A program made the translations under genes and the position numbers. 64,000 nt of DNA from Methylobacter sp. KS41 (GTDB lineage: Bacteria > Pseudomonadota > Gammaproteobacteria > Methylococcales > Methylomonadaceae): contig PHSP01000004.1 in NCBI GenBank assembly GCA_002862125.1, positions 1 through 64,000 on the forward strand. Direction: 5' to 3'. Under the pieces are notes generated by a model. The model saw nothing but the letters and a program-made list of their open reading frames with translations. It searched no databases and was not told the origin of the DNA. Position 1 is the first letter of the stretch, and every line of letters starts with the position of its first letter. Of this stretch, positions 14,414-34,074 are shown in pieces.

Positions 14414-15142
14414 TCAAATATAAAGCGATGCCATGCGCCGCCAATAATATCCGCTATGCGCCCTATCGTCCCAAAGCACTAACTGGTGATTTATGTTTTT
14501 TTGCCGCAATATGGAACTTAACTGTTCATTATTCTGCAAAAACGGATCTTCTTTACCAATGACCAGAGTAATCTCGATTTCCCTTAATTTGTTCAGGCGC
14601 CAGGAGCATTCCAGATTAGGCAAAAAATGTATGGGGGTATGAAAATAAATATCTTCATTATAAAAACCATCGAAAAGATCTTTAAAAAACTCTACATTGA
14701 GGGTGAGATCATAACGCCCGGAAAATGCGACCAGCTTTTTAAAAAATTGAGGGTAGCGAAATGCAATATTGGCCGCATGAAATGCGCCAAGGCTTAAGCC
14801 ATGAGAAATAACACATTCATGCTGATTCCTGCCTTGCATAAAAGGCAACACTTCGTTCAAGATATATTCTTCATAATCTATATGGCGCTGAATACGCCCG
14901 CTGGGATGAGCCCATTCACAATAAAAACTTTCAGTATCAATTCCATCGATACAATAAAGCTGTAACCAGCCTTGCTCTATCTTGTACTTTAAGGATTCTA
15001 CTATGCCTAATTTTTCGTACTCGTAAAACCGCCCAAAGCGGGAAGGAAAAACCAATACTTTTGCACCGGCATGACCAAACACAAGTAATTCCATATCGCG
15101 CTGTAATCGATCGCTCCACCACTTGTGATACTCACGATTCAT
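14414..15142 (-). CDS. Esterase D-like alpha/beta hydrolase
   Basis: This 242-residue protein resembles the putative-esterase (esterase D/PHB-depolymerase-like) family. The nucleophile elbow is SHGLSLGAFHAA (G-x-S-x-G as GLSLG). A family-style acidic residue follows in IGKEDPFLQN and a C-terminal His in WDDRAHSGYYWRR, completing a Ser-Asp-His triad. There is no signal peptide, so it is cytoplasmic. Its first 11 bases overlap the end of the upstream esterase gene on the same strand, so the two are translationally coupled. The natural ester is unknown. The opening HKWWSDRLQRDMEL is common to a set of uncharacterised bacterial esterases. Confidence 0.8.
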   Translation of the reverse strand: MNREYHKWWSDRLQRDMELLVFGHAGAKVLVFPSRFGRFYEYEKLGIVESLKYKIEQGWLQLYCIDGIDTESFYCEWAHPSGRIQRHIDYEEYILNEVLPFMQGRNQHECVISHGLSLGAFHAANIAFRYPQFFKKLVAFSGRYDLTLNVEFFKDLFDGFYNEDIYFHTPIHFLPNLECSWRLNKLREIEITLVIGKEDPFLQNNEQLSSILRQKNINHQLVLWDDRAHSGYYWRRMASLYI

Positions 15143-16169
15143 CCAGATCTCCAGTATACATGTCAGTTAATTGTTCGCCAAGGGGAGCAAAAAAGGCATC
15201 GAGCTGCTTTATCAGTCCGGACTCTTGCTGCACCTGTTTTGGGTAGATGCAATGCCCGGCTTCCAGAATAAAAAGCTGTTTTTCCCGGGGCAATGCGTTG
15301 TATATTGCAAACTGCCCGGGAGGAGCGACACAAGGATCAAACAGTGCGCACGCACAATGTATGGGCATGTTAATCCGCTTTGCCGCCAAGGCCGCATCGT
15401 AATATCTCAACACTTTTAGGGTCTGTTTTTTATGAGCTCTATAGTACCGCTGTACGCTCTGTCCGCTGCCATTGGTTGCAAGTTTTAAGCGTAAAGGCTG
15501 GTTGCCGAAGGTGGGCATATTGAAATGGCCTTTGCTGATACGCGCCTCCCACGCCAGCGCCAAAGCGCCAATTCCCCCGCCAAAGCTAATACCCAGATAG
15601 CCTAAATGTCCTGCCAAGCGCGGAAACAGGGACAGCATGGCGCTCACCGCCAGCCACACATCTTCAACACAGCCGCCCAGAATATAACGATCCCTCTGGT
15701 CAATGTCGTGCAGCACATGCCAACAAGGTTCGGTAGAAATGGGCGGCCGTGAACTGAGAGCTAAGCCGCGAAAACAGGGAAACAACAAGGCCGCGTCTTT
15801 AAAGGGCTGATGAAAATCAGGCCCATCGCGCCCGCCATAGCCGTGCCCGACAATAAAGCCGCGCTTTATCTCTCCGGAAACCGGCAACAATAACCAGCCC
15901 CGGATAGGAAAATTACCGGTGGAGGTGTAACTTATTTCGAATACCTGCCAGCCCATGCTATTTTCAAGTAATATCCTTGTTTGCGGGCGAGGATCAATGG
16001 TTAATGACTTTTGATAGCGCTTTTGCCAAAAGGAATCAAAATCCACCGGTTCTTTCGGAGTCTTGACCGCAAGCAATTGCTTAAGCGAATATCCATAAGT
16101 TGGATCAAAATCATATTTAATTGTCTCTATGATACTTTTATCGTCATCTGGCATTGATGCAATCCTCAA
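15132..16169 (-). CDS. Acetyl xylan esterase-like (AXE1 family) hydrolase
   Basis: This 345-residue protein fits the AXE1/cephalosporin-C deacetylase group. An N-terminal part begins with KTPKEPVDFDSFWQKRY, a common AXE1 opening. It continues with an oxyanion-region motif VGHGYGGRDG, the nucleophile elbow LGISFGGGIG, the Asp segment CALFDPCVAPP and the terminal His in EAGHCIYPKQ. No signal peptide is evident. It is the first gene of a two-esterase unit, overlapping the next gene by 11 bp. The substrate could be acetylated sugars or other small esters. Confidence 0.82.
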   Translation of the reverse strand: MRIASMPDDDKSIIETIKYDFDPTYGYSLKQLLAVKTPKEPVDFDSFWQKRYQKSLTIDPRPQTRILLENSMGWQVFEISYTSTGNFPIRGWLLLPVSGEIKRGFIVGHGYGGRDGPDFHQPFKDAALLFPCFRGLALSSRPPISTEPCWHVLHDIDQRDRYILGGCVEDVWLAVSAMLSLFPRLAGHLGYLGISFGGGIGALALAWEARISKGHFNMPTFGNQPLRLKLATNGSGQSVQRYYRAHKKQTLKVLRYYDAALAAKRINMPIHCACALFDPCVAPPGQFAIYNALPREKQLFILEAGHCIYPKQVQQESGLIKQLDAFFAPLGEQLTDMYTGDLDES

Positions 16170-16451: not shown

Positions 16452-16468
16452 TTAACCCATCTTCGTGA
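16452..16468 (+). repeat. Left terminal inverted repeat of IS1634-type element
   Basis: TTAACCCATCTTCGTGA, exactly complementary to the repeat at 18552-18568. Confidence 0.85.
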
Positions 16469-16623
16469 CTCCAGTCGCCCTAAGTTATTGATTTTTGGTT
16501 ACCGGCGGTTTTCATTTCGAAAAAACCCTTTAAAATCAATGCTCATTTTTCGCTCTCTCTTGTAGTGCCATCCATTTAGGTTTGCATCTTGATTTTTTCC
16601 GGAATAGCGCCCATGCTAGAGCC

Positions 16624-18510
16624 ATGTATATTCGAAGAACCAAAACCAAAACAGCGGATCATGGCGAAGATTCCTATACCTATCGGATCGTTGAATCCGT
16701 GCGTGAGGGAACACAAGTCAAGCAACGTACGCTACTCAATCTAGGCAAAGACTTTGCCATTGAGCCCGCGCACTGGCCCTTGCTTGCGGCCAGAATTGAA
16801 CAGCTTCTGCAAGGCTCAGCGCCGCGCCAAGACGAGTTGTTTCATTTAGAGGATGATGCCGGTCAACTTCTGGAGGCCGCCGCCGTGCGCTATAGCGACC
16901 TCATCATCGCGAAACTGGCGCAACCGGTGGCGGCAGCGACGCCCGGGCAGGATTATCATAGTGTCGGCATTAATCATATCGAAGCCCATCAAGCCCGCAG
17001 CATCGGCGGGGAAACGTTGGCGTTGCATGCGGTCATGCAGTTGCAGCTGGATCAGAAGCTTGCCGCACTGGGCTTTAACAAAATCGATGCCGCGGCGGCA
17101 TTGGGCAGCATCATAGGGCGCATGATTTCACCCGGCAGCGAACTGCAGACCCATGACTGGCTGCAAGCACGTACCGGCCTGGGTGAACTGCTTGATCATG
17201 ACTACGGCAGCACCAGTCTGACGCGCCTGTACACCATCAGCGATAAGTTGCTCAAACACCAGTCGGCGCTGGAAACTTTTCTGGGTGCTCAGGAGCAGAC
17301 CTTATTCGATTTAAACCGGAGCATCGTCTTGTACGACTTGACCAACACCTATTTTGAAGGCCAGTGCGCCCAAAACCCCAAGGCCCGGTTCGGCCGCTCC
17401 AAAGAAAAACGCCGTGATTGCCCATTGGTGACCTTAGGTCTGGTTCTGGATGGCAATGGCTTCCCGCTCAGCAGCCAGGTCTTTCCAGGCAACGCCAGCG
17501 AGCCCGCCACGTTGGCGCTGATGCTGGACGGTCTGCAGGGGAAAAATCCATTAGCCGGAGAAAAACCGGTCATTATCATGGATGCCGGCATTGCCAGCGC
17601 TGACAATCTCGCCTGGTTAAGCGCGCGCGGTTATCTTTACCTGGTGGTCAGCCGGGAACGCTACCTACAAGATCCCAGAGACCAGGATAATGCCGTACTG
17701 GTTAGGGAAACCGGACAGAGCAAAGTCAGCGTTTACCGCACAATCGATGCAGAAACCGGGGAAACCCGGCTCTATTGCCACTCCGATCAAAAAGCCAAAA
17801 AAGAACAGGCCATCCGCAACCGCTTCCACGTTCGTCTGGAAGAGGGGCTCGACAAGCTCCATGCCGGTTTGGACAAAAAAGGCACGATCAAAAACTACGC
17901 GAAAATACTCGAACGCATTGGCCGGCTGCGCGAAAAAAACAGCCGCGTCGCGCAAGACTACCGCATTGAAGTCATTGCTGATGACGCGAAAAACAACGCC
18001 ATCCGTATTGAATGGCAGCGTGAACCCAAAAGTGAACAAAAAGACCGGCACTGCGGAGTTTACTGCCTGAGAACCACTACTCCGGACTGGTCGGAAGAAC
18101 AATTGTGGTCAACCTATATCATGCTGACCGAGATCGAAGCCACGTTCAGAAGCTTGAAAACCGACCTCGGCTTACGTCCAGTTTTCCACCATAAAGAAGA
18201 ACGCGTCACCGGACACTTGTTCATTACTTTAATGGCCTACCATCTGGTGCATACCCTGCGCTATCAACTCAAGCAGCAGGGTATCCATTTAAGCTGGGAC
18301 AGCATACGCAACATTATGTCGACCCAACAACGCCTCACGATTACCTTGCCGACAGAGGATAATAAGACCATTCACCTGCGCACAACAACCCAAGCCGAAA
18401 CACGCCAAAAACAACTATACGCAGCCTTAAGTATCAAACCTGACCTGATAGGTAAATGTAAGACGATTATTGATAAGAAAAAATATGTAGTGCCATTTGA
18501 GATAAATTAA
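16624..18510 (+). CDS. IS1634-family transposase
   Basis: This DDE transposase of 628 residues has the IS1634-type N-terminus MYIRRTKTKT; a longer frame from a TTG at 16582 is less likely. The RNase H-like core shows the first Asp in VLYDLTNTYFEG, the second in VIIMDAGIASADNLAWL, and the YREK-type C-terminal block in TEIEATFRSLKTDLGLRPV followed by ERVTGHLFITLMAYHL. The frame has no internal stop or shift. It is the only gene in the element. Confidence 0.93.
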   Translation: MYIRRTKTKTADHGEDSYTYRIVESVREGTQVKQRTLLNLGKDFAIEPAHWPLLAARIEQLLQGSAPRQDELFHLEDDAGQLLEAAAVRYSDLIIAKLAQPVAAATPGQDYHSVGINHIEAHQARSIGGETLALHAVMQLQLDQKLAALGFNKIDAAAALGSIIGRMISPGSELQTHDWLQARTGLGELLDHDYGSTSLTRLYTISDKLLKHQSALETFLGAQEQTLFDLNRSIVLYDLTNTYFEGQCAQNPKARFGRSKEKRRDCPLVTLGLVLDGNGFPLSSQVFPGNASEPATLALMLDGLQGKNPLAGEKPVIIMDAGIASADNLAWLSARGYLYLVVSRERYLQDPRDQDNAVLVRETGQSKVSVYRTIDAETGETRLYCHSDQKAKKEQAIRNRFHVRLEEGLDKLHAGLDKKGTIKNYAKILERIGRLREKNSRVAQDYRIEVIADDAKNNAIRIEWQREPKSEQKDRHCGVYCLRTTTPDWSEEQLWSTYIMLTEIEATFRSLKTDLGLRPVFHHKEERVTGHLFITLMAYHLVHTLRYQLKQQGIHLSWDSIRNIMSTQQRLTITLPTEDNKTIHLRTTTQAETRQKQLYAALSIKPDLIGKCKTIIDKKKYVVPFEIN

Positions 18511-18551
18511 AATTTTAACTTATTGAAATAACAAGAAATTATCAGTAGAAT

Positions 18552-18568
18552 TCACGAAGATGGGTTAA
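18552..18568 (-). repeat. Right terminal inverted repeat of IS1634-type element
   Basis: TCACGAAGATGGGTTAA, the exact reverse complement of the left end; it begins about 40 bp after the transposase stop. Confidence 0.85.
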
Positions 18569-18642: not shown

Positions 18643-18819
18643 CTATCGTGGATTAATCAATACAACGTCCTCAGCGGAAAAACCAATACTCCCCAGAGAA
18701 GAATTTTTAAACCCAAACGTAAATTGATTGGCATAGAAATCAGCTTCAAATATCAACTTAAGTTCGAGAACTCCATTAATAGTAAACCCTGAAAGACTGC
18801 TGTATTTGTTCAAACTCAT
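18643..18819 (-). CDS. Possible small ORF overlapping PLD gene end
   Basis: A 58-residue frame (ATG 18819, TAG 18645-18643) overlaps the last 44 bp of the PLD-family gene in another frame. Its translation has protein-like composition (NGVLELKLIFEADFYANQF, SLGSIGFSAEDVVLINPR). No ribosome site is clear. It could be a small coupled gene, the frameshifted tail of the PLD protein, or chance. Low confidence. Confidence 0.22.
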   Translation of the reverse strand: MSLNKYSSLSGFTINGVLELKLIFEADFYANQFTFGFKNSSLGSIGFSAEDVVLINPR

Positions 18820-20371
18820 AGAGATATGGCTGCGCTACCTGGTGATTATTAACCACCACAACCAGATCGTGAGAAAAAACAGAGGTGTTATACCAGTTAA
18901 AACTGCCTTCTATAACAATTGAATCGTCAATGACACAATATTTGGAATGAATGGGCGAATAAGGGACGGGGTGATCGTCTTGCCCATACACCAAGCCTAC
19001 CGGTATGCCGGCATTTTTTAGCCGCTGCACGGCAGGCAACAATGGCCGATTGAGTTCATCCGCCATCGATCGCTCCACGCCAACCCGCCCCTGCCTGGCT
19101 AAATGTCCATTAAAAAGAATATGCACATAAACCCCGCGATCCTGAGCGTGAATCAAGGCGTCGACCACGCTGTCATGATGATCACCCAACAGGTCTCCCA
19201 TTAAAAACAGACAAAGCTTGATCGAATGCCTAGCATGGTGAATTTCGGCCAGGATGGCGTGATGGGGACGGTAGGGCTTCCCGTTGAGCATCATGTGTCT
19301 GCCGAAGGTATAGAGCAAATTGAACTGGCTTAAGGGGTTAATGCCATATTTCTGATTCACGCCGCCGCGTTGACTCTGGAAAATATTATCAAGCAGACGG
19401 CATATACCCTTGGAATGAAAGGTCATCCCTGATTCCCAATTAGCCCACCAGCGGTCGAAGGTGATGTTGAATGAACCCAGTATGGAGTCCTCATCGTTAA
19501 AAATAACAAATTTGGTATGCATATCCGGCTCAACTTCAATGAGGTGATGCTTGGGACTGCAAAAAACGCCTATCAATTCAACTCTGGCATGCTTCAAACG
19601 GGCATAGTTCTGGCTGTTGGTGAGGGTCATCTTTCGCCAGTCCACAATACACTGAACCAAAACGCCCTGATGGCTGGCATGAATCAAATGAGAAATAAAA
19701 TCCGCATCATCAATACAATCGACACTGACTTTGATGGTACAAAGCCGGCCAGGATTTGCCCATTTGCTGTGAATGACCTTATCTATATGATCATGGATAA
19801 AACGTTTGGGATGATAAGGATGGTAAAGCTGACCTTTGGTAAACTTGGGAGTCAGATTTAAAGATTCTAAATGTTGATTATACCAGTCTACGTCACTCTG
19901 TAATTCGGCGGCATTCAGTTCATAGGTACGATAAGCGTTAGCGGTTGACCATTCTCCGGTGATCTTTCGATACTGCGGGTGACCATCTCTCGCTTGATGG
20001 CTGTCCATGAAAATGTAATCATTTTGAGAGGGAATGGAATGCTCATCAAGATGAATAATGAAAGAAAACTTGATGCAGTTAACCGGACCAAGGTTATTGG
20101 AAAACGGTAGCACATAAAAGTCGCGAGTGCTGCGCTTGTGGCGATCCCACTGGATATCAAAGGCATCGGTATCAACTATGTACTTTTCGCATAATCCATG
20201 ATCCCGATACACTTTAAGAATAACTTTTACATTAGCCTGAATTCCGAAGAACACATCAAATTCTATTTTCCCCCAGCGGATATCAAATTTATCATTATAA
20301 TCATTGACTCTTTGAAAATAGCCGCCCAAATGCCCATGAACGGGCATGGCAAAGTATTCTGCTACTTGCAT
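18776..20371 (-). CDS. Phospholipase D-superfamily protein, two HKD motifs
   Basis: This 531-residue protein has two phosphodiesterase half-sites of the PLD superfamily: His285/Lys287 in MHTKFVIFNDEDSILGSFN and His475/Lys477 in IHSKYCVIDDSIVIEGSFNW. Each is followed by the family's GSFN segment. Residues 1 to about 150 form an extra beta-rich N-terminal domain that I do not recognise. It has no signal peptide, so it acts in the cytoplasm. It is the last member of the leftward glgB-glgA-EEP-PLD group, 96 bp after the EEP gene. The family includes nucleases, phospholipases and cardiolipin synthases. With a phosphoesterase fused to starch-binding modules next door, a role on a glycogen-linked phosphodiester is a hypothesis only. 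Confidence 0.82.
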   Translation of the reverse strand: MQVAEYFAMPVHGHLGGYFQRVNDYNDKFDIRWGKIEFDVFFGIQANVKVILKVYRDHGLCEKYIVDTDAFDIQWDRHKRSTRDFYVLPFSNNLGPVNCIKFSFIIHLDEHSIPSQNDYIFMDSHQARDGHPQYRKITGEWSTANAYRTYELNAAELQSDVDWYNQHLESLNLTPKFTKGQLYHPYHPKRFIHDHIDKVIHSKWANPGRLCTIKVSVDCIDDADFISHLIHASHQGVLVQCIVDWRKMTLTNSQNYARLKHARVELIGVFCSPKHHLIEVEPDMHTKFVIFNDEDSILGSFNITFDRWWANWESGMTFHSKGICRLLDNIFQSQRGGVNQKYGINPLSQFNLLYTFGRHMMLNGKPYRPHHAILAEIHHARHSIKLCLFLMGDLLGDHHDSVVDALIHAQDRGVYVHILFNGHLARQGRVGVERSMADELNRPLLPAVQRLKNAGIPVGLVYGQDDHPVPYSPIHSKYCVIDDSIVIEGSFNWYNTSVFSHDLVVVVNNHQVAQPYLYEFEQIQQSFRVYY

Positions 20372-20466: not shown

Positions 20467-21972
20467 TTACTTTGGCTCAAATGACATAAGATAACCGCAG
20501 TGATCCGAGACCCTGCCATAATCTTCTTCTGTAAACAGAACCCTTCCTGAAACAATGGATAAAGCACTCGCCTTGTCCATAAAAATATAATCAATGCGAT
20601 AATCATCGGCAACAAAATCATGCCAATGGGGGTCATTCACTTTAAAAATTTTTTCGAATACGCCCTGGGCGCTGACCGATAAAAACTGGTCTTCATATTC
20701 ATTGGATTTTACCACCAGATTGTAGCCTTCCGACCCTGGCGCTATATTAAAATCGCCGCACAACATTGTCCCGCTAACATCTGCTGCCTGGTTATCAGAA
20801 GCCCAGCCGCACAGTCTTTTAAACTGCTCGGAAAAGCCGTCCGCCCACCAACTTAGATGCGCTGAAAAAAAATTGATTAACCCTATGCAGGGAACATGCA
20901 CTTGCGCCATGACGACTTTTCTGGAATGAATACTGAAGGCGCTATGGCTGTTCGAAACATATTTTGATTCCCGTTTTAACATCGGGTATCTGCTCAAGAC
21001 AGCAACGCCTTCCCGGTATTTTTCAAAACCCAGATGCGACCAATCCGTATAAAGATGGTAAGGCGGATTAAGACGATCATTAATTATTTTCGCCGAATTT
21101 GTTTCCCAATCCCCATGCCCATCGTTCCAAAGTTCCGCGACTTCCTGAAGACAGACGATATCGACATCCAACTCGTTAATCGCTTTAGCTATTTGTGAAA
21201 ATTTGTAATCCTGATTATCCTCCTGATAACAATGCAGATTAAGAATCATGACTTTTAACGGATCATGACTAAGCGAGTAATTCTTACCATAATTATTATC
21301 CCATAAAACCTGATCAGGACACTCACAGGAAATAGTGTATTGCAACCGAAAAACGCCATCTATTTTAAGCAATCCTTGCCAAATCTGAACACCATATTGA
21401 TTTGGATTCCGGGCATGGCTGCGAGATTTTTCATCCCAATAGTTTCTTTTAAAATGACAAGGGGCTTTATTCGTGTGCTTCCAATTGTCTGTTGTCCAGT
21501 GAACAGTAACTTTTTTAGCATGAACAGACTGTTTTACCGATACTGTGACAGGAACGTATTTCTGTCCATCGTGTAATCTGCTCTCAAAGCCGATATTCAA
21601 CACTGGTTGACTGGTTACTACTTTAATTCCGGAGTCTGCCTGGCTGGAATAATTTAAGCCGTATTTGTTGTCCCAATATTCCCTGCCCTGTGTTTGATAA
21701 CGCAATGCAAACTTGATATTGCCCGGCAGTGATTGATCCGCTGATAAATTAACTGACATTTGAGCCTGCCAGTACTCTTTATTATGTCCAGGATTACTGT
21801 GATAGGTTGCCGGAAGCGTGTGCCACTGGTCATCCTCGCCAGCCCACAGAACAGCAATTTTCTTGTCATGATACAGATTTTCCACCAGCATAAAAAAAGA
21901 CAGTTCCTGGTGAAGAACCCGTTTTTTTCTGGTTATTACATTTTCTACATACAGCAGACCGATTTCATTCAT
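20467..21972 (-). CDS. Tandem CBM21-EEP phosphoesterase fusion
   Basis: This 501-residue protein has three domains. Residues about 7-112 and 125-236 each look like a CBM21 starch/glycogen-binding module. Both end with that family's signature: YWDNKYGLNYS (residues 99-109) and LWDNNYGKNYS (223-233), the motif also found in glycogen-targeting subunits of protein phosphatase 1. Residues 240-501 are an endonuclease/exonuclease/phosphatase (EEP) domain with a full active-site set: LQEV (Glu277), SAHLSWW (His372), CGDFN (Asp407, Asn409), RIDYIF (Asp461) and SDHCGY (Asp490-His491). There is no signal peptide. It follows glgA on the same strand, 211 bp apart. Inference: a metal-dependent phosphoesterase recruited to glycogen. 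Whether it removes phosphate, cuts nucleic acid or acts on a nucleotide sugar is unknown. Confidence 0.8.
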   Translation of the reverse strand: MNEIGLLYVENVITRKKRVLHQELSFFMLVENLYHDKKIAVLWAGEDDQWHTLPATYHSNPGHNKEYWQAQMSVNLSADQSLPGNIKFALRYQTQGREYWDNKYGLNYSSQADSGIKVVTSQPVLNIGFESRLHDGQKYVPVTVSVKQSVHAKKVTVHWTTDNWKHTNKAPCHFKRNYWDEKSRSHARNPNQYGVQIWQGLLKIDGVFRLQYTISCECPDQVLWDNNYGKNYSLSHDPLKVMILNLHCYQEDNQDYKFSQIAKAINELDVDIVCLQEVAELWNDGHGDWETNSAKIINDRLNPPYHLYTDWSHLGFEKYREGVAVLSRYPMLKRESKYVSNSHSAFSIHSRKVVMAQVHVPCIGLINFFSAHLSWWADGFSEQFKRLCGWASDNQAADVSGTMLCGDFNIAPGSEGYNLVVKSNEYEDQFLSVSAQGVFEKIFKVNDPHWHDFVADDYRIDYIFMDKASALSIVSGRVLFTEEDYGRVSDHCGYLMSFEPK

Positions 21973-22183: not shown

Positions 22184-23635
22184 TCATTCTTTGAATTCGC
22201 CTTTAAGGCTTTCATATAACGCCATATACTGCTCAGCGCTGCGCTGCCAGGAGAAATCTTTACTCATGGCATTAATCTGCATTCTCTTCCAGATATCCGG
22301 ATAACTGTATAAAAACAGGGTGCGTTTGATCGCTTCCAGCAAAGAACCCGCACTGGCTTCGGAAAACACAATACCGCTTGCGGTATGCCGGGCCAATGTT
22401 TCAGGCAAGGCATCAGTGACAGTATCCGCCAGTCCCCCGGTTTTTCTGACTATAGGAATAGTGCCGTAACGCTGACTATACATTTGATTTAAACCGCAGG
22501 GTTCAAATCGCGATGGCATCAGGAAAATGTCTGCGCCCGCCTCAATAAGATGAGCCAGCGCTTCATCATAGCCGATGTTTATCGCTATTTTTTCGGGATA
22601 CAACTGAGCCATTTTTTGCAGCTGTTTTTCAAAGTCCTTGTCGCCACTGCCAAGCAATACAAATTGCAGGTCCATAGTAATTAGCTCTGGAAGACATTCT
22701 AAAATCAGGTCTATGCCTTTTTGCTCTACCAGTCGTCCTATCAGTCCGAAGAGCGGAACCAGATCATTAGCCGGAAGCCCTAATCTCTTTTGTAATTCAG
22801 ATTTGTTGGCCGGCTTTTTATTGAGCGTCGCGGCCGTATAGCGCTGGGCAATATAAGGATCTTTCTCAGGATTCCATTGATCGGTATCAATGCCGTTTAT
22901 GATGCCGCCTAAAAATTCCTTTCTATGATCCAGTAATCCTTCAAGACCATAACCAAACTCCGGGGTTTGAATTTCCAAGGCATAGGTCGGGCTCACAGTT
23001 GTAATGTAATCCGCAAAAATCAGGCCGCCTTTAATGAAGGACAACATCTCATGAAATTCCAGTCCATCCGGGTTCCATAACCTGCCCGGTATGTTTAATG
23101 CGGCTGCCGTACTGCTTGGGAATAAACCCTGATAGGCCATATTATGGATAGTAAAAACGGTCGAGGGCCGTTCTTGCTCAAGCGTTAAAAAGGCCGGAAC
23201 CATGCCGGTTTGCCAGTCGTTACAGTGGACTATATCGGGTTTCCAGTGCTGATGCACCCTATCCATGGCCGCCTCGACAGCGACGCGGCAAAATAACGCA
23301 AACCGTTCCGCATTGATGGGCCAAGGTACACCCTGTTCATCGACATAGGGGTTGCCCGGATAGTTGTAGTAGACTGGATAATCAACAAGCCAGACAACAA
23401 CGTGGCTATCCGGCATATGTGTTTCAAGTATATTCACGTTCCGGTTATCAACACGTATGGTACAAAGAAAACGGATATCCCCGGTGGTTTTTAGCGCTTG
23501 ATAATTGGGAATAATCAGTTTTATATCATTGGATAATTCAGCTAATGCTTTAGGCAGGCTACCGCAAACATCCGCAAGGCCTCCGGTTTTAATCAGAGGG
23601 TGTGCTTCACTGGTAACAAAAAGTATTTTTTTCAT
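22184..23635 (-). CDS. glgA: Glycogen synthase (ADP-glucose)
   Basis: This 483-residue GT5 enzyme elongates alpha-1,4-glucan from ADP-glucose. The N-terminal ADP-glucose-binding motif is HPLIKTGGLADVCGSLPKAL. The acceptor-side segments HCNDWQTGMVPAFL and FTIHNMAYQG follow, and the C-terminal Rossmann domain has GRLVEQKGIDLI and the catalytic-region block MPSRFEPCGLNQMYSQRYG. Length is normal for bacterial GlgA. It lies 94 bp downstream of glgB on the same strand and directly upstream of the CBM21-EEP gene, so the three are likely cotranscribed. Confidence 0.96.
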   Translation of the reverse strand: MKKILFVTSEAHPLIKTGGLADVCGSLPKALAELSNDIKLIIPNYQALKTTGDIRFLCTIRVDNRNVNILETHMPDSHVVVWLVDYPVYYNYPGNPYVDEQGVPWPINAERFALFCRVAVEAAMDRVHQHWKPDIVHCNDWQTGMVPAFLTLEQERPSTVFTIHNMAYQGLFPSSTAAALNIPGRLWNPDGLEFHEMLSFIKGGLIFADYITTVSPTYALEIQTPEFGYGLEGLLDHRKEFLGGIINGIDTDQWNPEKDPYIAQRYTAATLNKKPANKSELQKRLGLPANDLVPLFGLIGRLVEQKGIDLILECLPELITMDLQFVLLGSGDKDFEKQLQKMAQLYPEKIAINIGYDEALAHLIEAGADIFLMPSRFEPCGLNQMYSQRYGTIPIVRKTGGLADTVTDALPETLARHTASGIVFSEASAGSLLEAIKRTLFLYSYPDIWKRMQINAMSKDFSWQRSAEQYMALYESLKGEFKE

Positions 23636-23729: not shown

Positions 23730-26207
23730 TTATAATTTCAGGATCAAAGCTCCCAAAGGCGGCAAGGTCAGACTAATGGAGTGAGGATGATTCATCCATG
23801 GCGTTGGTTCTGATTGAATCGCACTATTTCCCATGTTACTGCCGTCATAGTATTTGGAATCAGAATTAAAAATCTCGTAATAGGCGCCGGCCTCGGGCAC
23901 GCCGAGCCGGTAATTCTCCCTGGGCACGGGGGTGAAATTGAGCACAATTATTAACTCTTCATATTTGTTTTTACGCCGGTAACTGATAATGGATTGTTGC
24001 ACATCGTGACAATCGATCCATTCAAAACCATGATGATCGAAATCATGCGTGAATAAAGCCGGATGCTTTTTTAACAGATGATTCAAATCCTTGACTAGTG
24101 TTTGCACGCCTTTATGATGCGGATAATCGAGTACGTACCAGTCCAATTCCTTGTTTGAACTCCATTCAGTGCCTTGCCCGAACTCACAACCCATAAACAA
24201 CAGTTTCTTGCCCGGATATGTGTACATGAAAGTATATAATAGCCGTAAATTGGCAAAGCGTTGCCATTCATCCCCCGGCATTCTGTTAATCAGGGAGCCT
24301 TTCCCATGCACTACTTCATCATGGGAAAAAGGCAGGGTGAAGTTTTCGGTAAAGGCATAGAGCATCCCGAATGTGAGCTGGTCATGATGGTATTTGCGGT
24401 GTATGGGCTCCTCGCTCATGTAGGCCAGTATGTCATGCATCCAACCCATATTCCATTTCATCGAAAAACCCAAACCGCCGGTCCATGTCGGACGAGTCAC
24501 CTGTGGCCAGGCAGTGGATTCTTCAGCCATCATGACAGTGCCAGGATGCAAATCGTGGGTGACAGTATTGAGTTCTCTGAAAAAATCAATGGCCTCAAGA
24601 TTCTCGTTGCCGCCATACATATTCGGGATCCAGTCATTTTCTTCACGGGAATAATCGAGATAAAGCATGGAAGCCACGGCATCTACTCTTAAACCATCAA
24701 GATGAAACTCTTCCAGCCAGAATAGCGCGCTGGAAAGTAAAAAGTTTTTAACTTCATTACGGCCATAGTTATAGATCAGCGTTCCCCAGTCACGGTGTTC
24801 GCCTTTACGGGGGTCTTCATGCTCATACAGGGCGCTGCCGTCAAATCTCGCCAAGGCAAACGCATCTTTAGGAAAATGCGCGGGCACCCAATCGAGAATA
24901 ATACCGATGTCATTTTGGTGACAAGTATCAACAAAATAACGGAAATCATCAGGTTTGCCGTGACGGCTGGTTGGAGCGAAATAGCCTGTGGTTTGATAAC
25001 CCCATGAGCCATCAAACGGATGCTCGGTTACAGGTAACAGTTCAATATGGGTAAAACCCATCTGTTTAACATAGTCAACAAGTTCGACCGCCAGCTCCCG
25101 GTAAGTGAGAAAATTACCCTGACTATTCCTTCTCCAGGAGCCCAGATGAACTTCATAAATAGCCATCGGTTCATGCAGCCAATCGTGTTTGGCGCGCTGC
25201 ATCATCCAGCGGGTGTCCTGCCATACATAAGTTTTTTCCTTGATGACAATTGACGATGTGTTTGGCCGGAACTCAAATTCCTGTCCATAAGGATCGGTCT
25301 TTAATAGTAACTCGTTGGTATACCGGTTTAATATTTCAAATTTGTATAAACAGCCTTCCTTTAGACCAGGGATGAAAATTTCCCAAATTCCGCTGCCGCC
25401 GAGACTACGCATAGGGTTGCAACGGCCATCCCAGCGGTTAAAGTCTCCCACCAAGCTGACCCGGCCGGCGTTTGGCGCCCATACAGAAAATAAAACACCA
25501 TCAATACCATCGACGGTATGCAGATGGCCGCCCAGTTTCTGGTAAATATGCCAGTGCTTACCTTCTCCGAATAAATGCTGGTCAAATGGTGGGAATTGGG
25601 TTCCAAAATCATAAGGATCATAGTTCTCATGAGGATAGCCGTTTTTATCTATCCAGTTTAATTTGTAGTGTTGCGGCAATTCCCCTTCTTTGGCGTAATA
25701 TTCAAAAAAGTCAGTGCCGGTTATCCGGTTAAGAACTGGACCGTCATTGGCAAGCCGGACCGTTTCTGCGTAGGGCAGATAAACTTTAATCTGAATTTGA
25801 TTATTCTTGGAATGGCGGCCCAAAACTGAAAAGGGATCATGATGCTTCGCTTCCATAATTTTTATCGAATCGGGATCCAGTTTGTTTTCTACTTTTTTCG
25901 CTGCTATGGTTTTTGCGGGCTCAGGGGCAACTATTTTTTTTGCAGGTTCTGGGACCGCTATGTTTTTTGTTGGCTCAGAGACCGGCGCTTTTACTGCTGC
26001 ATTTTCTTTTTGAGGTTTTATAGCTTCTACAGTCACCGTTTCTGTTTTCGGTTTCTCGCTTTTCCTGGTATTTGACTCCATCGGGCTAGATGCTGTTTTT
26101 TCTTCTATATTTTTTGCGGGCTTAGAGCCGGAGGTGTTCGTTTCCGGTTTTGCAGCACTGGTTTTATTAGCATCAGAGTCAAGTGTGTTATTAGAACGCT
26201 TTTTCAC
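23730..26207 (-). CDS. glgB: 1,4-alpha-glucan branching enzyme, extended N-terminus
   Basis: This 825-residue GH13 branching enzyme is about 100 residues longer than usual. Residues 1 to about 113 are a low-complexity Lys/Pro/Ala/Glu-rich extension with near-repeats ([20 protein letters not shown]). The normal enzyme then follows: an N1 domain from about 115, a CBM48 ([19 protein letters not shown]) and a GH13 barrel with the nucleophile Asp in [16 protein letters not shown], the acid/base Glu in [13 protein letters not shown], and [12 protein letters not shown]. Translation probably starts at the GTG at 26207. It heads the leftward glycogen unit and is divergent from glgC across 96 bp. The tail may be a disordered or tethering segment. 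Confidence 0.95.
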
Positions 26208-26303: not shown

Positions 26304-27584
26304 ATGTCAACATCAAGCAATCATAAGCATGATCACAATGTCGGTCATTTAACTCGCAATACCATTGCTTTAATACTAGCGGGCGGCCGTGGTTCGCGGT
26401 TGATGAACATGACTGATTGGCGCGCCAAACCGGCCGTCCCCTTCGGCGGCAAGTTTCGCATTATTGATTTTCCATTATCCAATTGCGTGAATTCCGGCAT
26501 ACGCAAGATAGGTATTTTGACACAATACAAGGCGGATTCACTCATTCGGCATATTCAGCAAGGATGGGGGTTTTTGCGTGGTGAATTTGGTGAATATGTT
26601 GATTTAATGCCCGCCCAACAAAGGCACGATGAAGATTCCTGGTATAAAGGGACCGCTGATGCTATTTTCCAGAACATCGATATTCTCCGCAGCCGCCATC
26701 CTGAACACATTCTGGTGCTGGCCGGTGATCACATCTACAAAATGGATTATGGTGCCATGCTGGCGGACCATGTTGAAAAGAATGCAGATTTAACGATTGG
26801 CTGTTTGGAAGTATCATTGGAAGAAGCGTCGGCCTTCGGCGTGATCGATATTGATTCCGATCGGCGCGTTAGAGCCTTTGTTGAGAAACCGGCAAATCCT
26901 CCGGTTATGCCGGGAAGAACCAATACTGCTTTGGCATCCATGGGCATTTATATCTTTAATGCTCCTTTTTTATTTGAACAGCTGCTTAAAGATGCCGACA
27001 CCAAAAAATCCTCGAATGATTTCGGTAAAGATATTATTCCTGCCGTCATTGATAAATACCTAGTCAATGCTTATCCATTTTTGGATTTGCAAACCGGTGA
27101 TCAAAGCTACTGGCGCGATGTGGGTACAATAGATGCTTACTGGGCGGCCAATATGGAATTGATTGGTGTAAACCCCGGCATGAATTTATACGATGACAGC
27201 TGGCCGATATGGACAAATCAGGAACAAACGCCGCCGGCCAAATTTGTTTTTGATGATGATGACAGGCGAGGACTAGCAGTTGACTCAATGGTTTCAGGAG
27301 GCTGTGTGATTTCCGGAGCAACAGTCAGGCATTCCTTGTTATTTTCAAATGTCCGTGTCAACTCATTCACTACTGTTCAAGATTCTATTGTTTTGCCTCA
27401 GGTTAATATTGCCCGTCATTGCCGCATTACCAAAGCGATTATAGAAAAAAGCTGCGATGTCCCGGAAGGCACCATCATCGGCGAGGACAGAGCGGAAGAC
27501 GAAAAAAGATTTTATGTCAGCGAAGGCGGCGTCGTGGTGGTGACTCCTGAAATGCTGGGACAAAGATTGCACTATGTCCGGTAA
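26304..27584 (+). CDS. glgC: Glucose-1-phosphate adenylyltransferase
   Basis: This 426-residue GlgC makes ADP-glucose from glucose-1-phosphate and ATP, the committed step of glycogen synthesis. It shows the nucleotidyltransferase motif [20 protein letters not shown], the [19 protein letters not shown] block, the [12 protein letters not shown] segment and the catalytic-region motif [12 protein letters not shown]. The sugar-phosphate site VEKPANPP comes next and a C-terminal left-handed beta-helix follows. The allosteric Arg/Lys residues near the N-terminus are of the bacterial type. It is the first gene of the rightward unit, followed after 136 bp by the GH57 gene. Confidence 0.96.
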
Positions 27585-27720: not shown

Positions 27721-29412
27721 ATGCCCGACAAAAAAAAGTTAAAATTGGTCTTGTGCTGGCACATGCATCAACCGGAATATAGGGATTTACAAACCGGAGA
27801 GTTTAAATTGCCCTGGACATATCTTCATGTCATTAAGGACTACATTGACATGGTTGCTCACCTGGAAGCGTCGCCCGAAGCTAAAGCGGTTGTCAATTTT
27901 GCACCCATTTTACTGGAACAAATTGAAGAATACGCCAATCAGGTCAATGGTTATTTACGACTTGGCAATTCAATCTCGGATCCTTTGCTGGCTGCTCTGA
28001 TTGCTCCAACTATTCCTGAAGATGCCGAAGATCGTTGGCAGCTGGTTAAAGACTGTCTGCGTGCCAATAGAGACAGACAAATCAACCGCTATCCGGCCTT
28101 CAAAAAACTGGCTGAAATGACAGAGTGGCTTGAACAGCATTACGAATCACTGAGTTATGTCAATGCCCAGTTTTATTATGATATATTGGTCTGGTATCAT
28201 CTGGCCTGGATGGGAGAAACAGTTAAATTAACCGATAGCCGGGTAAAGCACTTAATTGAAAAAGGTTCTGGTTATAGTTTGCACAATCGAGTTGAAATCG
28301 TGCAAATTATTGGAGAACTGCTGGCAAATGTGCTCCGCCGCTATAAGGTGTTAGCCAGAAAAGGGCAGATCGAGCTTTCGGTAACGCCTTATGCCCATCC
28401 CATTATACCGCTGTTGCTGGACTTTAAATCCGCGCACGAAGCAATGCCGGACGCGCCTTTGCCGGATTTGGATGTTTATCCGGGCGGAGAAGAACGGGTG
28501 AGATGGCACCTTGAAAAAGCAGTGCAAACCTTTAAGCGTTTTTTTGGCTCTAAACCAAAAGGATGCTGGCCGTCAGAGGGTAGTATCAGCGGCCAGACGC
28601 TGGAGATACTGAGTGATTTCGGCTTTCATTGGACTGCAAGTGGCGGCTCCGTTCTGCAAAACAGTTTAAATCAGCCTGAAAATATGGAACCATCAGGAAT
28701 ACACCATCCCTTTAAACTAAAAAATACAAAAATTGCCTGCTTTTTCCGGGATGACGGCTTATCAGACCTTATAGGTTTTGAATATTCAAAGTGGCACGCA
28801 AATGATGCGATTAGTGATTTGATTCATCATCTGGAAAATATTGCAGCTCACGAACCCGGCAATAAAGTGGTTTCAATTATCATGGATGGCGAAAACGCCT
28901 GGGAATATTTCCCGGATAACGGCTATCATTTTCTAAGCGCCTTATATAGCCGGTTAGCTAGTCATCCGGGAATTGAATTGACCACTTTCTCGGACTGTCT
29001 GAAAAGCAAAGCCGTTGTTAAACCCTTATCCAGATTGGTTTCAGGCAGTTGGGTTTACGGGACATTCTCAACCTGGATAGGGTCTCCGGACAAAAATCGT
29101 GGCTGGGATATGTTGGGCGATGTAAAATATGCGTTCGATAAAGCCTTGGCGGCCAACCGGTTAACCGACAAACAAATTCAGCATGCTGAGTTTCAGCTTG
29201 CTGTGTGTGAAGGTTCCGACTGGTTCTGGTGGTTTGGCGATTATAATCCGGGCGAAGCGGTCAGCAGCTTTGAGAAACAATTCCGGCTTAATTTGGCTAA
29301 TCTGTATCGATTATTAGGCGAAGAGCCACCAGCTTATCTGGCACTGTCATTTACCCAAGGTTCTGGTGATCCAGCCATGGGCGGAGCAATGCGGCCAGGC
29401 GTAGAACACTAA
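27721..29412 (+). CDS. Glycoside hydrolase family 57 enzyme
   Basis: This 563-residue cytoplasmic protein belongs to GH57. The opening motif VLCWHMHQPEYRD is the first conserved GH57 region. The presumed nucleophile Glu is in GCWPSEGSISGQTLEIL, and the presumed acid/base Asp is in SIIMDGENAWEYFPDNGYHF; SDWFWWFGDYNPG lies in the C-terminal domain. GH57 includes alpha-amylases, 4-alpha-glucanotransferases, amylopullulanases and branching enzymes, and sequence alone does not choose between them. Its position between glgC and malQ, 16 bp before the latter, points to glycogen or maltodextrin processing. Confidence 0.92.
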   Translation: MPDKKKLKLVLCWHMHQPEYRDLQTGEFKLPWTYLHVIKDYIDMVAHLEASPEAKAVVNFAPILLEQIEEYANQVNGYLRLGNSISDPLLAALIAPTIPEDAEDRWQLVKDCLRANRDRQINRYPAFKKLAEMTEWLEQHYESLSYVNAQFYYDILVWYHLAWMGETVKLTDSRVKHLIEKGSGYSLHNRVEIVQIIGELLANVLRRYKVLARKGQIELSVTPYAHPIIPLLLDFKSAHEAMPDAPLPDLDVYPGGEERVRWHLEKAVQTFKRFFGSKPKGCWPSEGSISGQTLEILSDFGFHWTASGGSVLQNSLNQPENMEPSGIHHPFKLKNTKIACFFRDDGLSDLIGFEYSKWHANDAISDLIHHLENIAAHEPGNKVVSIIMDGENAWEYFPDNGYHFLSALYSRLASHPGIELTTFSDCLKSKAVVKPLSRLVSGSWVYGTFSTWIGSPDKNRGWDMLGDVKYAFDKALAANRLTDKQIQHAEFQLAVCEGSDWFWWFGDYNPGEAVSSFEKQFRLNLANLYRLLGEEPPAYLALSFTQGSGDPAMGGAMRPGVEH

Positions 29413-29428
29413 CTAGAGATCACTACGA

Positions 29429-30904
29429 GTGAATAACCTTTTAAACAAACGCCGCGCAGGCGTCCTGCTGCATATCACCTCGCTGCCGGGTACGAGCGAG
29501 CGAGGCGAGTTAGGTCAAGAAGCCTATAATTTTGTCAATTTTCTTCATGATTCCGGGGTTAGCGTATGGCAAACATTGCCATTAGGCATGCCCCATAGGG
29601 ATGGTTCTCCTTATCAATGTTTATCCGCTCATGCCGGCAATCCTGACTTGATTGATATTGACGGGCTAGTGAAACTGGGCTGGTTACAATTATCCGAGCA
29701 GTGCGAAGAATGCCGGAAAACACCGGAGGGCTACAAAAGCTGTTTGCTGGCAAAAGCTTATCATGGATTTTTAGAACGCGCTGAACGCCGGGATTGGGAC
29801 GAATTTGCACATTTTTGTCAGGAAAAGGCATTTTGGCTCGATGATTTTACGTTATTTATAGCCCTTAGAAACGTATTTAATCAACAATGCTGGAACCAAT
29901 GGCCTGAGCCTTTCAAGGAAAGGGATCCAAAATCACTCAGGGAAGCGCGACACCGGTTATCAACGGCAATAGAAGAGATTAAATTCGAGCAATATGTCTT
30001 TTTCCGGCAATGGATGGCATTAAAAGCTTATGCCAATGAGCATGGCGTGCTGTTGTTTGGCGACATTCCTATTTTTGTATCTTATGACAGCTCTGATGTC
30101 TGGGCCAACCGGAAGGTTTTTAAACTCGATGAATCAGGGGAGATGTTAGTAGTCGCGGGCGTGCCGCCTGATTATTTTTCCGCAACCGGTCAGCGCTGGG
30201 GCAACCCGCATTATGATTGGAATTATCTGAAGAACACCTGGTTTAATTGGTGGATTGAACGGATGCAAACCCAGCTTGAACAGTTTGACATTCTCCGTAT
30301 CGATCATTTTCGCGGACTGGAGGCGGCGTGGGAAATACCAGCCGATGAGCCTACCGCCCAGAATGGCCAATGGGTTAAAGCCCCGGGAAAAGCCTTATTG
30401 AAGGCAATAAAAGCAAAACTAGGTTCGATTCCCCTGGTGGCTGAAGATCTCGGAATAATTACCGATGAAGTTGAAGCATTAAGAGATGAATTCAATTTAC
30501 CCGGCATGAAGATTTTACAGTTTGCCTTTGGCAGCGGACCTGAAAATCCTTATTTACCTGACCATTACGAAAGGAACTGTGTTGTTTATACAGGCACTCA
30601 TGATAACAATACGACTTTAGGCTGGACGCACGCTCTCAATGACTATGAGAGAAACCACGCGTGCGAATATCTGGGTAATCCGTCAATTCCACTGCATTGC
30701 GCGCTCATTCAATCCGCATTGAGATCGGTAGCCAATCTTGCCGTTATCCCGATGCAGGATATTCTTGAACTGGGTTCCGAAGCCCGGATGAACACACCGG
30801 GCACTACAGTAGGCAACTGGAAGTGGCGTTTTCAGTGGGATCAACTGCCGCATGAACGAGCCAGCCGTTTTGCGCATCTGGTATCGCTATATAGCCGGAA
30901 TTGA
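29429..30904 (+). CDS. malQ: 4-alpha-glucanotransferase (amylomaltase)
   Basis: This 491-residue GH77 enzyme transfers alpha-1,4-glucan segments between maltodextrins. Seen motifs are ITSLPGTSERGELGQEA, FGDIPIFVSYDSSDVWAN, PPDYFSATGQRWGNPHYDW, the nucleophile Asp in ILRIDHFRGLEAAWEIP, the Glu in LVAEDLGIITDEV and the stabilising Asp in TGTHDNNTTLGW. Translation starts at a GTG (29429), 16 bp after the GH57 stop. It closes the rightward glycogen unit and is followed by a terminator-like hairpin. Confidence 0.95.
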   Translation: MNNLLNKRRAGVLLHITSLPGTSERGELGQEAYNFVNFLHDSGVSVWQTLPLGMPHRDGSPYQCLSAHAGNPDLIDIDGLVKLGWLQLSEQCEECRKTPEGYKSCLLAKAYHGFLERAERRDWDEFAHFCQEKAFWLDDFTLFIALRNVFNQQCWNQWPEPFKERDPKSLREARHRLSTAIEEIKFEQYVFFRQWMALKAYANEHGVLLFGDIPIFVSYDSSDVWANRKVFKLDESGEMLVVAGVPPDYFSATGQRWGNPHYDWNYLKNTWFNWWIERMQTQLEQFDILRIDHFRGLEAAWEIPADEPTAQNGQWVKAPGKALLKAIKAKLGSIPLVAEDLGIITDEVEALRDEFNLPGMKILQFAFGSGPENPYLPDHYERNCVVYTGTHDNNTTLGWTHALNDYERNHACEYLGNPSIPLHCALIQSALRSVANLAVIPMQDILELGSEARMNTPGTTVGNWKWRFQWDQLPHERASRFAHLVSLYSRN

Positions 30905-31935: not shown

Positions 31936-34074
31936 CTAAAAGCTAAGCCACCCTGAACCAAATGAAGTCGCAAAAACAAGACTGACTATGGACATTAATT
32001 TGATCAGAATGTTTAGAGACGGGCCGCTGGTATCTTTGAAAGGGTCGCCTACGGTGTCGCCGACTACCGCTGCTTTATGGGCATCGGAGCCTTTGCCGCC
32101 GTATTGTCCGGTTTCAATCCACTTCTTAGCGTTGTCCCATGCGCCGCCGGCGTTGGCCATCATCACCGCCAGCAAAAAGCCGGAAGACATAGTGCCAACC
32201 AGGAGACCAGCAAGGGCTTCTTTCCCCAGAATAAAGCCAACAACCAGGGGCACAACGACCGCCAATGAACCCGGCAAAATCATTTCACGCAGAGCGCTTT
32301 CAGTACTGATGGCGATGCAGGTTTTGTAGTCGGGCTCTCCAGTGCCATCCATCAAGCCGGGAATCACATTGAACTGCCTGCGCACCTCCAGCACAATCTC
32401 GTGCGCCGCCTTGCCGACAGCCATCATGGTCAATGCCGAAAAAAGATACGGCATCATCGCGCCAATAAGAATACCGGGAAGCATGGTTGGTCCGAGGATA
32501 TTCAGATTGTCAATTTTTGCGGCTGTTACATAAGCGGCCAGTAAGGCTAAAGCGGTCAATATTGCCGAACCAATGGCAAAGCCCTTGCCGGTAGCCGCTG
32601 TGGTATTGCCAAGACTATCCAAAGCATCGGTACGTTGACGCACCTCATCGGGCAGATGACTCATTTCAGCAATGCCACCCGCATTATCAGCCACCGGACC
32701 ATAGGCATCGGTCGCCAGAGTGACGCCGAGCGTGCTTAACATGCCTACCCCGGCCACCGCTACGGCATAAAGACCGGAAGCAATGGTGCCATCAGCCTTA
32801 TAACCCAGCCATATACTTAACAAAATAGCCACGGCGACAATCAACACCGGCAATACCGTGCTCATCATGCCGGCTGCCAAGCCTTGAATAATCGTGGTGG
32901 CCGCGCCGGTTTGCGTCGCGTTGGCAATTGCTTGCGTCGGTTTTTCAGTATAGGAAGTAAAGTATTCGGTCGCATAGGCAATGGCGTTACCCGCGACCAA
33001 GCCCACCAAAATAACCAGCCAATAATTAAAGCTGACGCCCGAAATTAACACTGTCAGCAAAGTCAGCGCCAACACCACGACTGAAGCCCCCCAAACGGAA
33101 CGCCGCAAGGCTGTCAGCAAATCTTCAAGGCTGGCATTTTCGTTTATCCTTGCCACTTGCTTCCTGAGAAAATGGGTGACGCGGCCGGTAACGGACATAT
33201 CCTCATAGGCGACTGCCAATGAAACGTTTTGCTCTTCGCCGATCACCATATAAATGCCAAAAAGGCTGGACATGACGCCTACGGCGGCAACCAGGAAGGG
33301 CAGCCCAATAAAAGCGGCGGCTGAATCAGAGCCCAATGCCGCCCCCAGCGTTGCCGCGGCAATAATGGAGCCGCTATAGCTTTCAAACAAGTCCGCGCCC
33401 ATACCGGCGACATCACCAACATTGTCGCCGACATTATCGGCAATTACCGCCGGATTGCGAGGATCATCTTCAGGAATGCCCTTTTCGACTTTACCGACAA
33501 GATCAGCGCCGACATCGGCTGCTTTAGTGTAGATGCCCCCGCCGACTCTGGCAAAAAGCGCTATACTGCTGGCGCCAAAACCAAAACCGGTTATATAGGT
33601 CAATTGCGCCGGATTGCCGGTAAATATAAGATATAAAACGGTCATGCCGATAAGGCTGAAGCTCACTACAGCCATCCCCATAATCGCGCCGCTGCCAAAG
33701 GCGACCCGTAATCCTTCATGCAGCCCCCGGCTGGCGGCCGCGGCGGTGCGGACGTTGGCGCGCACGGCCACATACATCCCCAGATAGCCTGCTCCTGCCG
33801 ATGCAATCGCGCCAACTACAAAACAAAGCGCGGTCTGCCACTGCAAAAACAGGGTAATGACCGTGGCGACAATAACCACGAAAATCGCTATAACGCGATA
33901 TTCGCGCGATAAAAAGGCCCCTGCCCCATCCTGAATAGCCGTAGCAATTTTCCGCATTACGGCATTGCCTTGATCATGACTTAAAACCCGCTGTGTTTGC
34001 CAAAGTACAAAACCGACGCCAACAATACCCATTAATAATGCAATGATAACCGATGCAGTTGCCTGTAACATCAT
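31936..34074 (-). CDS. hppA: Membrane-bound proton/sodium-pumping pyrophosphatase
   Basis: This 712-residue protein of about 16 helices hydrolyses pyrophosphate to pump cations. It has the substrate motifs [39 protein letters not shown] and, at the C-terminus, [19 protein letters not shown]. The segment [18 protein letters not shown] has Ala where potassium-independent enzymes have Lys, so it should belong to the potassium-dependent class. That class contains both sodium and proton pumps, so the ion is not settled here. Methanotrophs often use pyrophosphate in central metabolism. The start ATG at 34074 has an in-frame second Met immediately after it. Confidence 0.95.

Follow-up and report, generated by a model that had tools for sequence, protein, structure and literature searches.

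The stretch of DNA analysed here (‘the window’) comprises the first 64,000 nucleotides of contig PHSP01000004.1 from the methanotroph Methylobacter sp. KS41 and carries, on its minus strand at 20467-21972, a gene for a 501-residue protein in which two CBM21 modules are joined to a catalytic domain of the EEP superfamily; the reading frame begins with an ATG at 21972. The order along the minus strand is glgB (branching enzyme with GlgB_N, CBM48 and GH13 domains by Pfam; 23730..26207), glgA (glycogen synthase; Pfam Glyco_transf_5, E=3.2e-80; 22184..23635), the CBM21-EEP gene and then a gene for a phospholipase D (PLD)-like protein of 531 amino acids (Pfam PLDc_2, E=2.5e-35, in two stretches; 18776..20371). 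The position directly after glgA, as given in the original prediction, is thus borne out, with 211 bp between the two genes and a further 95 bp separating the CBM21-EEP gene from the PLD-like gene. Running divergently on the plus strand are glgC (glucose-1-phosphate adenylyltransferase; 26304..27584; Pfam NTP_transferase, Hexapep_GlmU and LbH_GLGC), a GH57 glycosidase of the glycogen cluster (27721..29412) and malQ (4-alpha-glucanotransferase, GH77; 29429..30904), the latter two likewise assigned by Pfam.

The tandem CBM21 arrangement stands up well. Pfam CBM_21 (PF03370) matches the protein at E=5.5e-21 over two stretches, and each half, when scored alone, exceeds the Pfam cut-off of 28.9 bits: module 1 (residues 1-120; 21613..21972, minus strand) with 38.4 bits and module 2 (residues 121-238; 21259..21612, minus strand) with 49.9 bits, the signatures first proposed for them, WDNKYGLNY and WDNNYGKNY, both being present. 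At E<=0.01 the 4.74 Mb genome has no CBM21 match besides these two, and none of 14 control genomes yielded one when searched likewise. Module 1 finds its best match in the starch-binding domain (SBD) of Rhizopus glucoamylase (2djm, E=5.3e-8, profile against PDB), and module 2 matches PPP1R3B (2eef, E=3.3e-7) and PPP1R3C (7qf7, E=1.7e-6) by phmmer; the 50 Foldseek rows listed for the AlphaFold model of the protein name no CBM21 structure.

We took the ligand-contact residues of the Rhizopus SBD and of PTG from excerpts of PMC3398936 and PMC9582199, respectively, and counted the corresponding columns in 42 homologues, leaving out RoSBD Y83 (site I) and Y67 (site II), and Arg187, Cys235 and Asp214 of PTG. 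In module 1, the residues aligned with SBD site I are W50, W100, N102 (each kept in 41 of 42) and N107 (42/42), and those aligned with site II are N32, H35, K37, Y57 and E66; of the latter, K37 and E66 are invariant and N32 is present in 37/42, whilst 36/42 have Y, H or F at position 35 and position 57 is aromatic or His throughout (42/42), such that both sites of the Rhizopus domain are largely kept. Module 2 retains site I, with W164 in 42/42, W224 in 41/42, N226 in 38/42 and N231 in 39/42, save that PTG Tyr196 is replaced by T167 here and by T, S, A or V across the homologues. Its site II is mostly lost: positions 148, 151, 152 and 153 are mostly unlike PTG, and of the five counted only position 174, with F or Y in 33/42, shows a general likeness to it. 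Rhizopus glucoamylase is a secreted enzyme, whereas no signal peptide is evident by eye in the CBM21-EEP protein, nor is one in its PLD-like partner, and intracellular glycogen is therefore the likely ligand of the two modules.

The remainder of the chain, residues 237-501 (20467..21264 on the minus strand, stop codon included), is recognised as an EEP domain by Pfam (Exo_endo_phos, PF03372, E=3.4e-16), by hidden Markov model and by Foldseek. N245, H247, E277, H313, E321, H372, W375, D407, N409, D461, D490 and H491 are invariant in the 42 homologues, as are the presumed catalytic residues and metal ligands of EEP enzymes, in keeping with the complete active site that had been claimed for it. 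To place the domain among EEP enzymes we used a profile of six MapP-type proteins, from Enterococcus faecalis, E. faecium, Priestia, Leclercia, Cetobacterium and Niallia, on which it scores 131.2 bits, as against 6.7 bits for the exonuclease-III-type EEP and 18.1 bits for the other EEP of its own genome, the only two negatives. An Accumulibacter homologue (148.4 bits), a lipoprotein-like EEP of another gammaproteobacterium (L075; 140.7 bits) and a CBM-free paralogue in the same genome (137.4 bits) score similarly. That paralogue (C3:1451630-1452457, L002) has 280 amino acids and lies near thioredoxin-like frames, and L075 lies near an oxidoreductase-like frame and lacks CBM21, both as judged by eye; the co-occurrence of members with and without a CBM in one genome resembles that of LSF2 and SEX4 in plants.

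The likeness to MapP of E. faecalis extends, with single-row exceptions, to the (L/I)NxHxxxE start, the H313/E321-G segment and the motifs Hx(S/G)WW, GD(F/L)N, R(I/L)D and SDHxG, as well as to the tie with alpha-glucan metabolism. Equivalents of H313 and E321 are present in 11/11 MapP-like rows (nine MapP-type proteins, the paralogue and L075) and in neither of the two other EEPs, and W375 has an equivalent in 9/11 of the former. The MapP-type proteins differ in having 261-274 amino acids, no CBM and, where the surroundings are annotated, an adjacent phosphotransferase system (PTS) gene, whereas the window protein has its tandem CBM21 and a glycogen locus. A PTS IIBC gene adjoins 5/5 profile members in annotated stretches: the E. 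faecalis member, annotated as maltose 6'-phosphate phosphatase, lies beside PTS IIBC, GH65 and pgmB, the E. faecium member has the same three neighbours, the Priestia member has PTS IIBC and pgmB, and those of Leclercia and Cetobacterium have an alpha-glucosidase and PTS IIBC, the Niallia stretch being without annotation; a Lactococcus MapP-type protein outside the profile also has PTS IIBC, GH65 and pgmB adjacent. We regard this as the mapP arrangement, since mapP, which encodes an EEP-family maltose-6-phosphate phosphatase, is placed downstream of the maltose PTS gene malT in the available text of PMC3737437. Two further gammaproteobacterial EEPs (L158 and L159) score 277 bits each on the MapP-type profile and lie, by eye, near PTS-transporter-like and glycogen/maltodextrin phosphorylase-like frames.

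Structural comparison points the same way. The AlphaFold (AF2) model of the whole chain has a predicted local distance difference test score (pLDDT) of 87 and a predicted template-modelling score (pTM) of 0.81, and its top Foldseek match is 3teb (E=8.8e-19; template-modelling score of 0.82 on the target for 3teb_A), which leads the next different protein, a sphingomyelinase, by more than five orders. The same entry is the only EEP match at E<=1 when a MapP-type protein is searched against PDB (E=3.7e-37), and at E<=0.001 it is joined by four CBM21 sequences when the full-length profile is used (3teb at 4.6e-31). Amongst many TDP2 entries, the lower Foldseek matches include the mannosyl-6-phosphatase Bt3783 (4c1r), by its entry title a precedent for an EEP enzyme whose substrate is a sugar 6-phosphate. 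It differs, however, in acting on a Bacteroides mannose phosphate; its structural match is far weaker than that of 3teb, and there is no sequence match at E<=0.001. Taken by profile and fold, the nearest relatives of known function are thus MapP and not nucleases. We call the domain ‘MapP-like’, and not MapP, because Pfam recognised no PTS gene among the 14 other window genes scanned (three of which matched no family) and because the fork in the tree allows a place either inside or beside the MapP group.

The partner protein belongs to the PLD superfamily by its two HxKxxxxD motifs: the second, HSKYCVID (475-482), is canonical, and the first, HTKFVIFN (285-292), carries N292 for D, an exchange kept without exception in the alignments A2 and A4. 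Its residues 1-150 are predicted to be mostly beta and have no Pfam match; we considered a hidden CBM21 here and found no support for it, hhalign giving 0.2% and 0.4% against the two modules, compared with 92% for one module against the other. The AF2 model of this protein is poor (pLDDT 65.8, pTM 0.37; about 75-90 pLDDT in the N-terminal domain), and a fold search with it says little beyond membership of the PLD superfamily.

The two genes are nearly inseparable. We examined the best 80 of 200 relatives from named genomes, where the PLD-like gene follows the CBM21-EEP gene in 70 of the 73 loci that have at least 600 bp downstream, the exceptions being L107, L110 and L135. A second set of 40 loci, which shares some members with the first, has the PLD-like gene in this position in 37, of which two are cut by a contig end, and in the exceptions L051, L064 and L065 (genomes G169, G117 and G128) it is found elsewhere in the genome. 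Among the family's 237 genomes, both genes are present in 154, four have the EEP gene only, seven the PLD-like gene only and 72 neither, so that both occur in 154 of the 165 genomes with either one (Fisher p=3e-47, an optimistic value, the genomes being related); this count drops 7 of 165 EEP rows whose best match is weak (about 1e-45 to 1e-3; a paralogue or fragment). Over 69 loci, the pairwise distances of one protein correlate with those of the other at 0.86, as would be expected for co-inherited genes. The PLD-like protein is, in short, a near-constant partner of the CBM21-EEP protein.

Nor is the CBM21-EEP architecture a local accident, for strong matches (best E under 1e-100) occur in 158/237 family genomes and, among the matches listed, span the whole protein, save a few shortened ones such as G084, G177 and G198. 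The closest relative among those listed is from a metagenome-assembled genome, Methylococcaceae NSM2-1 (84% along the full protein); among records assigned to a species, Methylobacter psychrophilus comes first (78%). The pair as such is widespread in methanotrophs, and carrier strains include Methylobacter tundripaludum SV96 (L093) and Methylobacter luteus IMV-B-3098 (L091). Outside the family, a class sample (369 genomes, searched with the EEP protein) gave no second full-length copy, and neither protein had a further full-length counterpart in a phylum sample (398 genomes, searched with both). Searches of 72,556 plasmids and 50,697 phage records at E<=1e-5 gave no match covering 80% of the CBM21-EEP protein; 61 plasmid records match in all, and the best matches listed concern the EEP domain only and come from Lactococcus, Priestia and Enterococcus. 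Three unannotated phage records (H83-H85) have an EEP match with 25-28% identity to the catalytic domain.

Two records of Candidatus Accumulibacter, a polyphosphate- and glycogen-cycling lineage, also carry the CBM21-EEP and PLD pair (L148 and L153; 60% GC each), and none of the genes recognised around it there is a glucan gene. In L148 the pair lies, by eye, among pgk-, rpoD- and dnaG-like frames, and it was probably transferred as a unit.

Of the 80 loci, 62 have a glucan gene near the pair: glgA, glgB or glgC only in 30, a GH57 branching enzyme, DUF4912 or glgX only in 20 and both sets in 12 (the second set being assigned by domains, with the name glgX inferred). Within 700 bp upstream, the recognised neighbour is glgA in 26/80 and the GH57 branching enzyme in 27/80. 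In a tree of 69 rows (68 of loci L078-L157 plus the window), a group of 25 holds the window and lies mostly beside glgBA, and a group of 44 lies mostly beside the GH57 branching enzyme or elsewhere, the contexts having been compared by eye. Genome-wide, glgA is common (220/237 family genomes) and occurs in 151/158 carriers of the gene as against 69/79 non-carriers (p=0.03); the link to glycogen is therefore mainly positional, with a weak genome-wide association. It had been argued that the glucan reading would suffer if the gene occurred apart from glycogen genes, and on this the outcome is mixed, since 18/80 loci lack local glucan genes but nearly all carriers have glgA.

From these findings we propose that the protein is a cytoplasmic glucan phosphatase, a reading in which we place somewhat better than even confidence. 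The two CBM21 modules would hold the enzyme on glycogen and the metal-dependent MapP-like EEP domain would take off phosphate monoesters, most likely from C6 of glucosyl residues, so keeping the polymer open to branching, debranching and phosphorolysis; such a role would parallel that of laforin and SEX4 in eukaryotes, with a catalytic fold of separate origin. Three substrates had originally been offered, and of these we favour glycogen-bound phosphate, because, of the relatives whose function is known, MapP is the nearest to the domain, and exonuclease III is distant by profile; a nucleotide sugar and nucleic acid are disfavoured. We also suggest that the adjacent PLD-like protein would act in the same process, perhaps (and this is a guess) on phosphodiesters, giving monoesters to the EEP domain. 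A fuller two-enzyme ‘phospho-editing’ of glycogen, in which opening of phosphodiesters or transfer of phosphoryl groups by the PLD-like protein would leave a 6-phosphate for the CBM21-EEP protein to take off, we consider tentative and, on balance, doubtful.

Several observations weigh against a glucan phosphatase. Identity to the MapP-type proteins is just 27-31%, compared with 24% and 21% to the genome's other EEPs, so that the profile, rather than plain identity, is what sets MapP-like domains apart, and this with two negatives. Nearer relatives are the CBM-free paralogue (38-39%) and L075 (40%), which have no assigned function, and within 3.8 kb around L075 no glycogen gene was seen by eye; the tree fork mentioned above (80/78 for the MapP-type group and 91/99 for the CBM21-EEP group) belongs here too, as does a single-sequence PDB search (limit 1) that lists ANGEL2 at E=0.016. 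Whilst several of the 18 loci without any searched glucan gene nearby are cut by contig ends, the gene is also missing from 69 genomes that have glgA, and on these two counts we conclude that glycogen synthesis does not require the pair and that the CBM21-EEP gene is accessory. A search of the genome found no kinase resembling GWD, its PPDK_N matches being pyruvate phosphate dikinase and phosphoenolpyruvate synthase, and phosphate on the glycogen of these bacteria is a premise of our proposal; phosphate arriving through a side reaction of the synthase, as debated for animals, would need no kinase.

The most serious alternative is a MapP-like phosphatase for small soluble substrates, such as maltodextrin 6-phosphates or other sugar phosphates arising as glycogen is turned over, that CBM21 merely stations on the granule. 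MapP itself acts on maltose 6-phosphate (excerpt of PMC3737437), and the paralogue at C3:1451630 shows that such a catalytic domain occurs without a CBM too. However, a tandem CBM21 whose site I residues are kept in nearly all 42 homologues suggests a polymeric substrate, and the 14 other window genes, three of them unmatched, include no recognised PTS gene, which is where maltose phosphate comes from in MapP organisms; we hold this alternative to be unlikely, if worth keeping in view. A phosphodiesterase or nuclease acting on DNA, RNA or ADP-glucose and localised to glycogen is less probable still. The EEP superfamily includes many nucleases, the structural matches of the model include TDP2 and neutral sphingomyelinase, the partner is a PLD-superfamily protein that also matches DrmC- and NucT-like models, and the exonuclease III and MnuA models match weakly, which counts against our proposal in turn. 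Yet those model scores are far under their cut-offs (16-17 bits against 182-185) and are seen for the MapP-type proteins likewise, and the domain scores more than 110 bits above the genome's two other EEPs on the MapP-type profile. PADLOC gives generic PLD-type matches and one weak match to the EEP protein, and with NCBIfam scans adding nothing more specific (the generic PLD models DrmC and NucT, which fall far short of the NCBIfam cut-offs, besides weak EEP matches) we set aside a nuclease or defence system. A non-catalytic scaffold that recruits the PLD-like protein or GlgA to glycogen, comparable to the PP1 glycogen-targeting subunits or to plant LSF1, described as catalytically inactive (excerpt of PMC13011383), might suit the PPP1R3B/C-like module 2 and the nearly inseparable gene pair, but is highly improbable with the presumed catalytic residues all invariant in 42 sequences.

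Amongst known systems, the glucan phosphatases SEX4 and laforin share with the window protein the union of a phosphatase and a glucan-binding module in one chain. To our knowledge, the removal of phosphate from glycogen or other glucans has up to now been described in plants, animals and protists alone; in the case of laforin, its loss leads to Lafora disease. SEX4 combines a dual-specificity phosphatase (DSP) with CBM21 (excerpt of PMC2714694), and the known glucan phosphatases are all DSPs according to the available part of PMC13011383, whereas the window protein has no DSP domain by Pfam up to E=1 and an EEP fold instead; it is thus not a member of the laforin/SEX4 family but may work like one. 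The comparison first drawn with PP1 holds as far as CBM21 is concerned, module 2 matching PPP1R3B and PPP1R3C (PTG), but these recruit a separate protein phosphatase, whereas here the catalytic domain is in the same chain, and SEX4 is the closer comparison.

No description of the CBM21-EEP architecture emerged from a literature search whose coverage left most subscription journals outside, in agreement with the earlier statement that no function has been described for it. Titles and abstracts yielded no bacterial glucan phosphatase, PMC13297497 dealing in its available portion with laforin only, and titles alone gave nothing relevant for Methylobacter or Methylomicrobium with glycogen; the available text of PMC11046441, a review from 2024 on the alpha-glucan enzymes of prokaryotes, mentions neither MapP, CBM21 nor laforin. 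A 2009 survey found no bacterial protein in which a carbohydrate-binding domain is linked to a phosphatase and considered it unlikely that bacteria have a glucan phosphatase (PMC2714694, in the part available), and a 2025 paper speculates, in the excerpt available, whether the glycogen of laforin-less organisms, including bacteria, is phosphorylated (PMC13011383).

Beyond the pair, an insertion sequence at 16452-18568, with perfect 17-bp inverted ends (16452-16468 and 18552-18568) and a DDE transposase (16582-18510), lies between the PLD-like gene and two minus-strand esterase genes at 14414-16169 (Putative esterase PF00756 and AXE1 PF05448, by Pfam). An AXE1-type esterase follows the PLD-like gene in 9/80 relatives, and in L035 and L062 of the set of 40, for which reason we think that the insertion sequence probably split a longer gene row. 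These esterases, which some relatives retain close to the pair, may remove acyl decorations, and the two that come after the PLD-like gene in some genomes hint at the removal of further decorations. A proton-pumping pyrophosphatase (H_PPase) at 31936-34074 adjoins the glycogen cluster, a 1216-residue frame at 40262-43912 on the minus strand has no Pfam match at E<=1e-5, and a second glgA, 68% identical, lies outside the window at C3:120601-122040 of the same genome.

The type of activity that we propose is already known; its fold, its architecture and the domain of life in which it occurs would be new. The enzyme could possibly provide biotechnology with a new glucan-directed sugar-phosphatase, together with a near-constant partner gene, and the locus supplies a concrete gene, available in named strains of methanotrophs, for addressing whether the glycogen of bacteria is phosphorylated, what takes the phosphate off and for what reason. 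Should phospho-editing prove true, the glycogen of methanotrophs and of Candidatus Accumulibacter would be both phosphorylated and actively dephosphorylated, and glucan phosphatases would have arisen independently in bacteria, on an unrelated fold.

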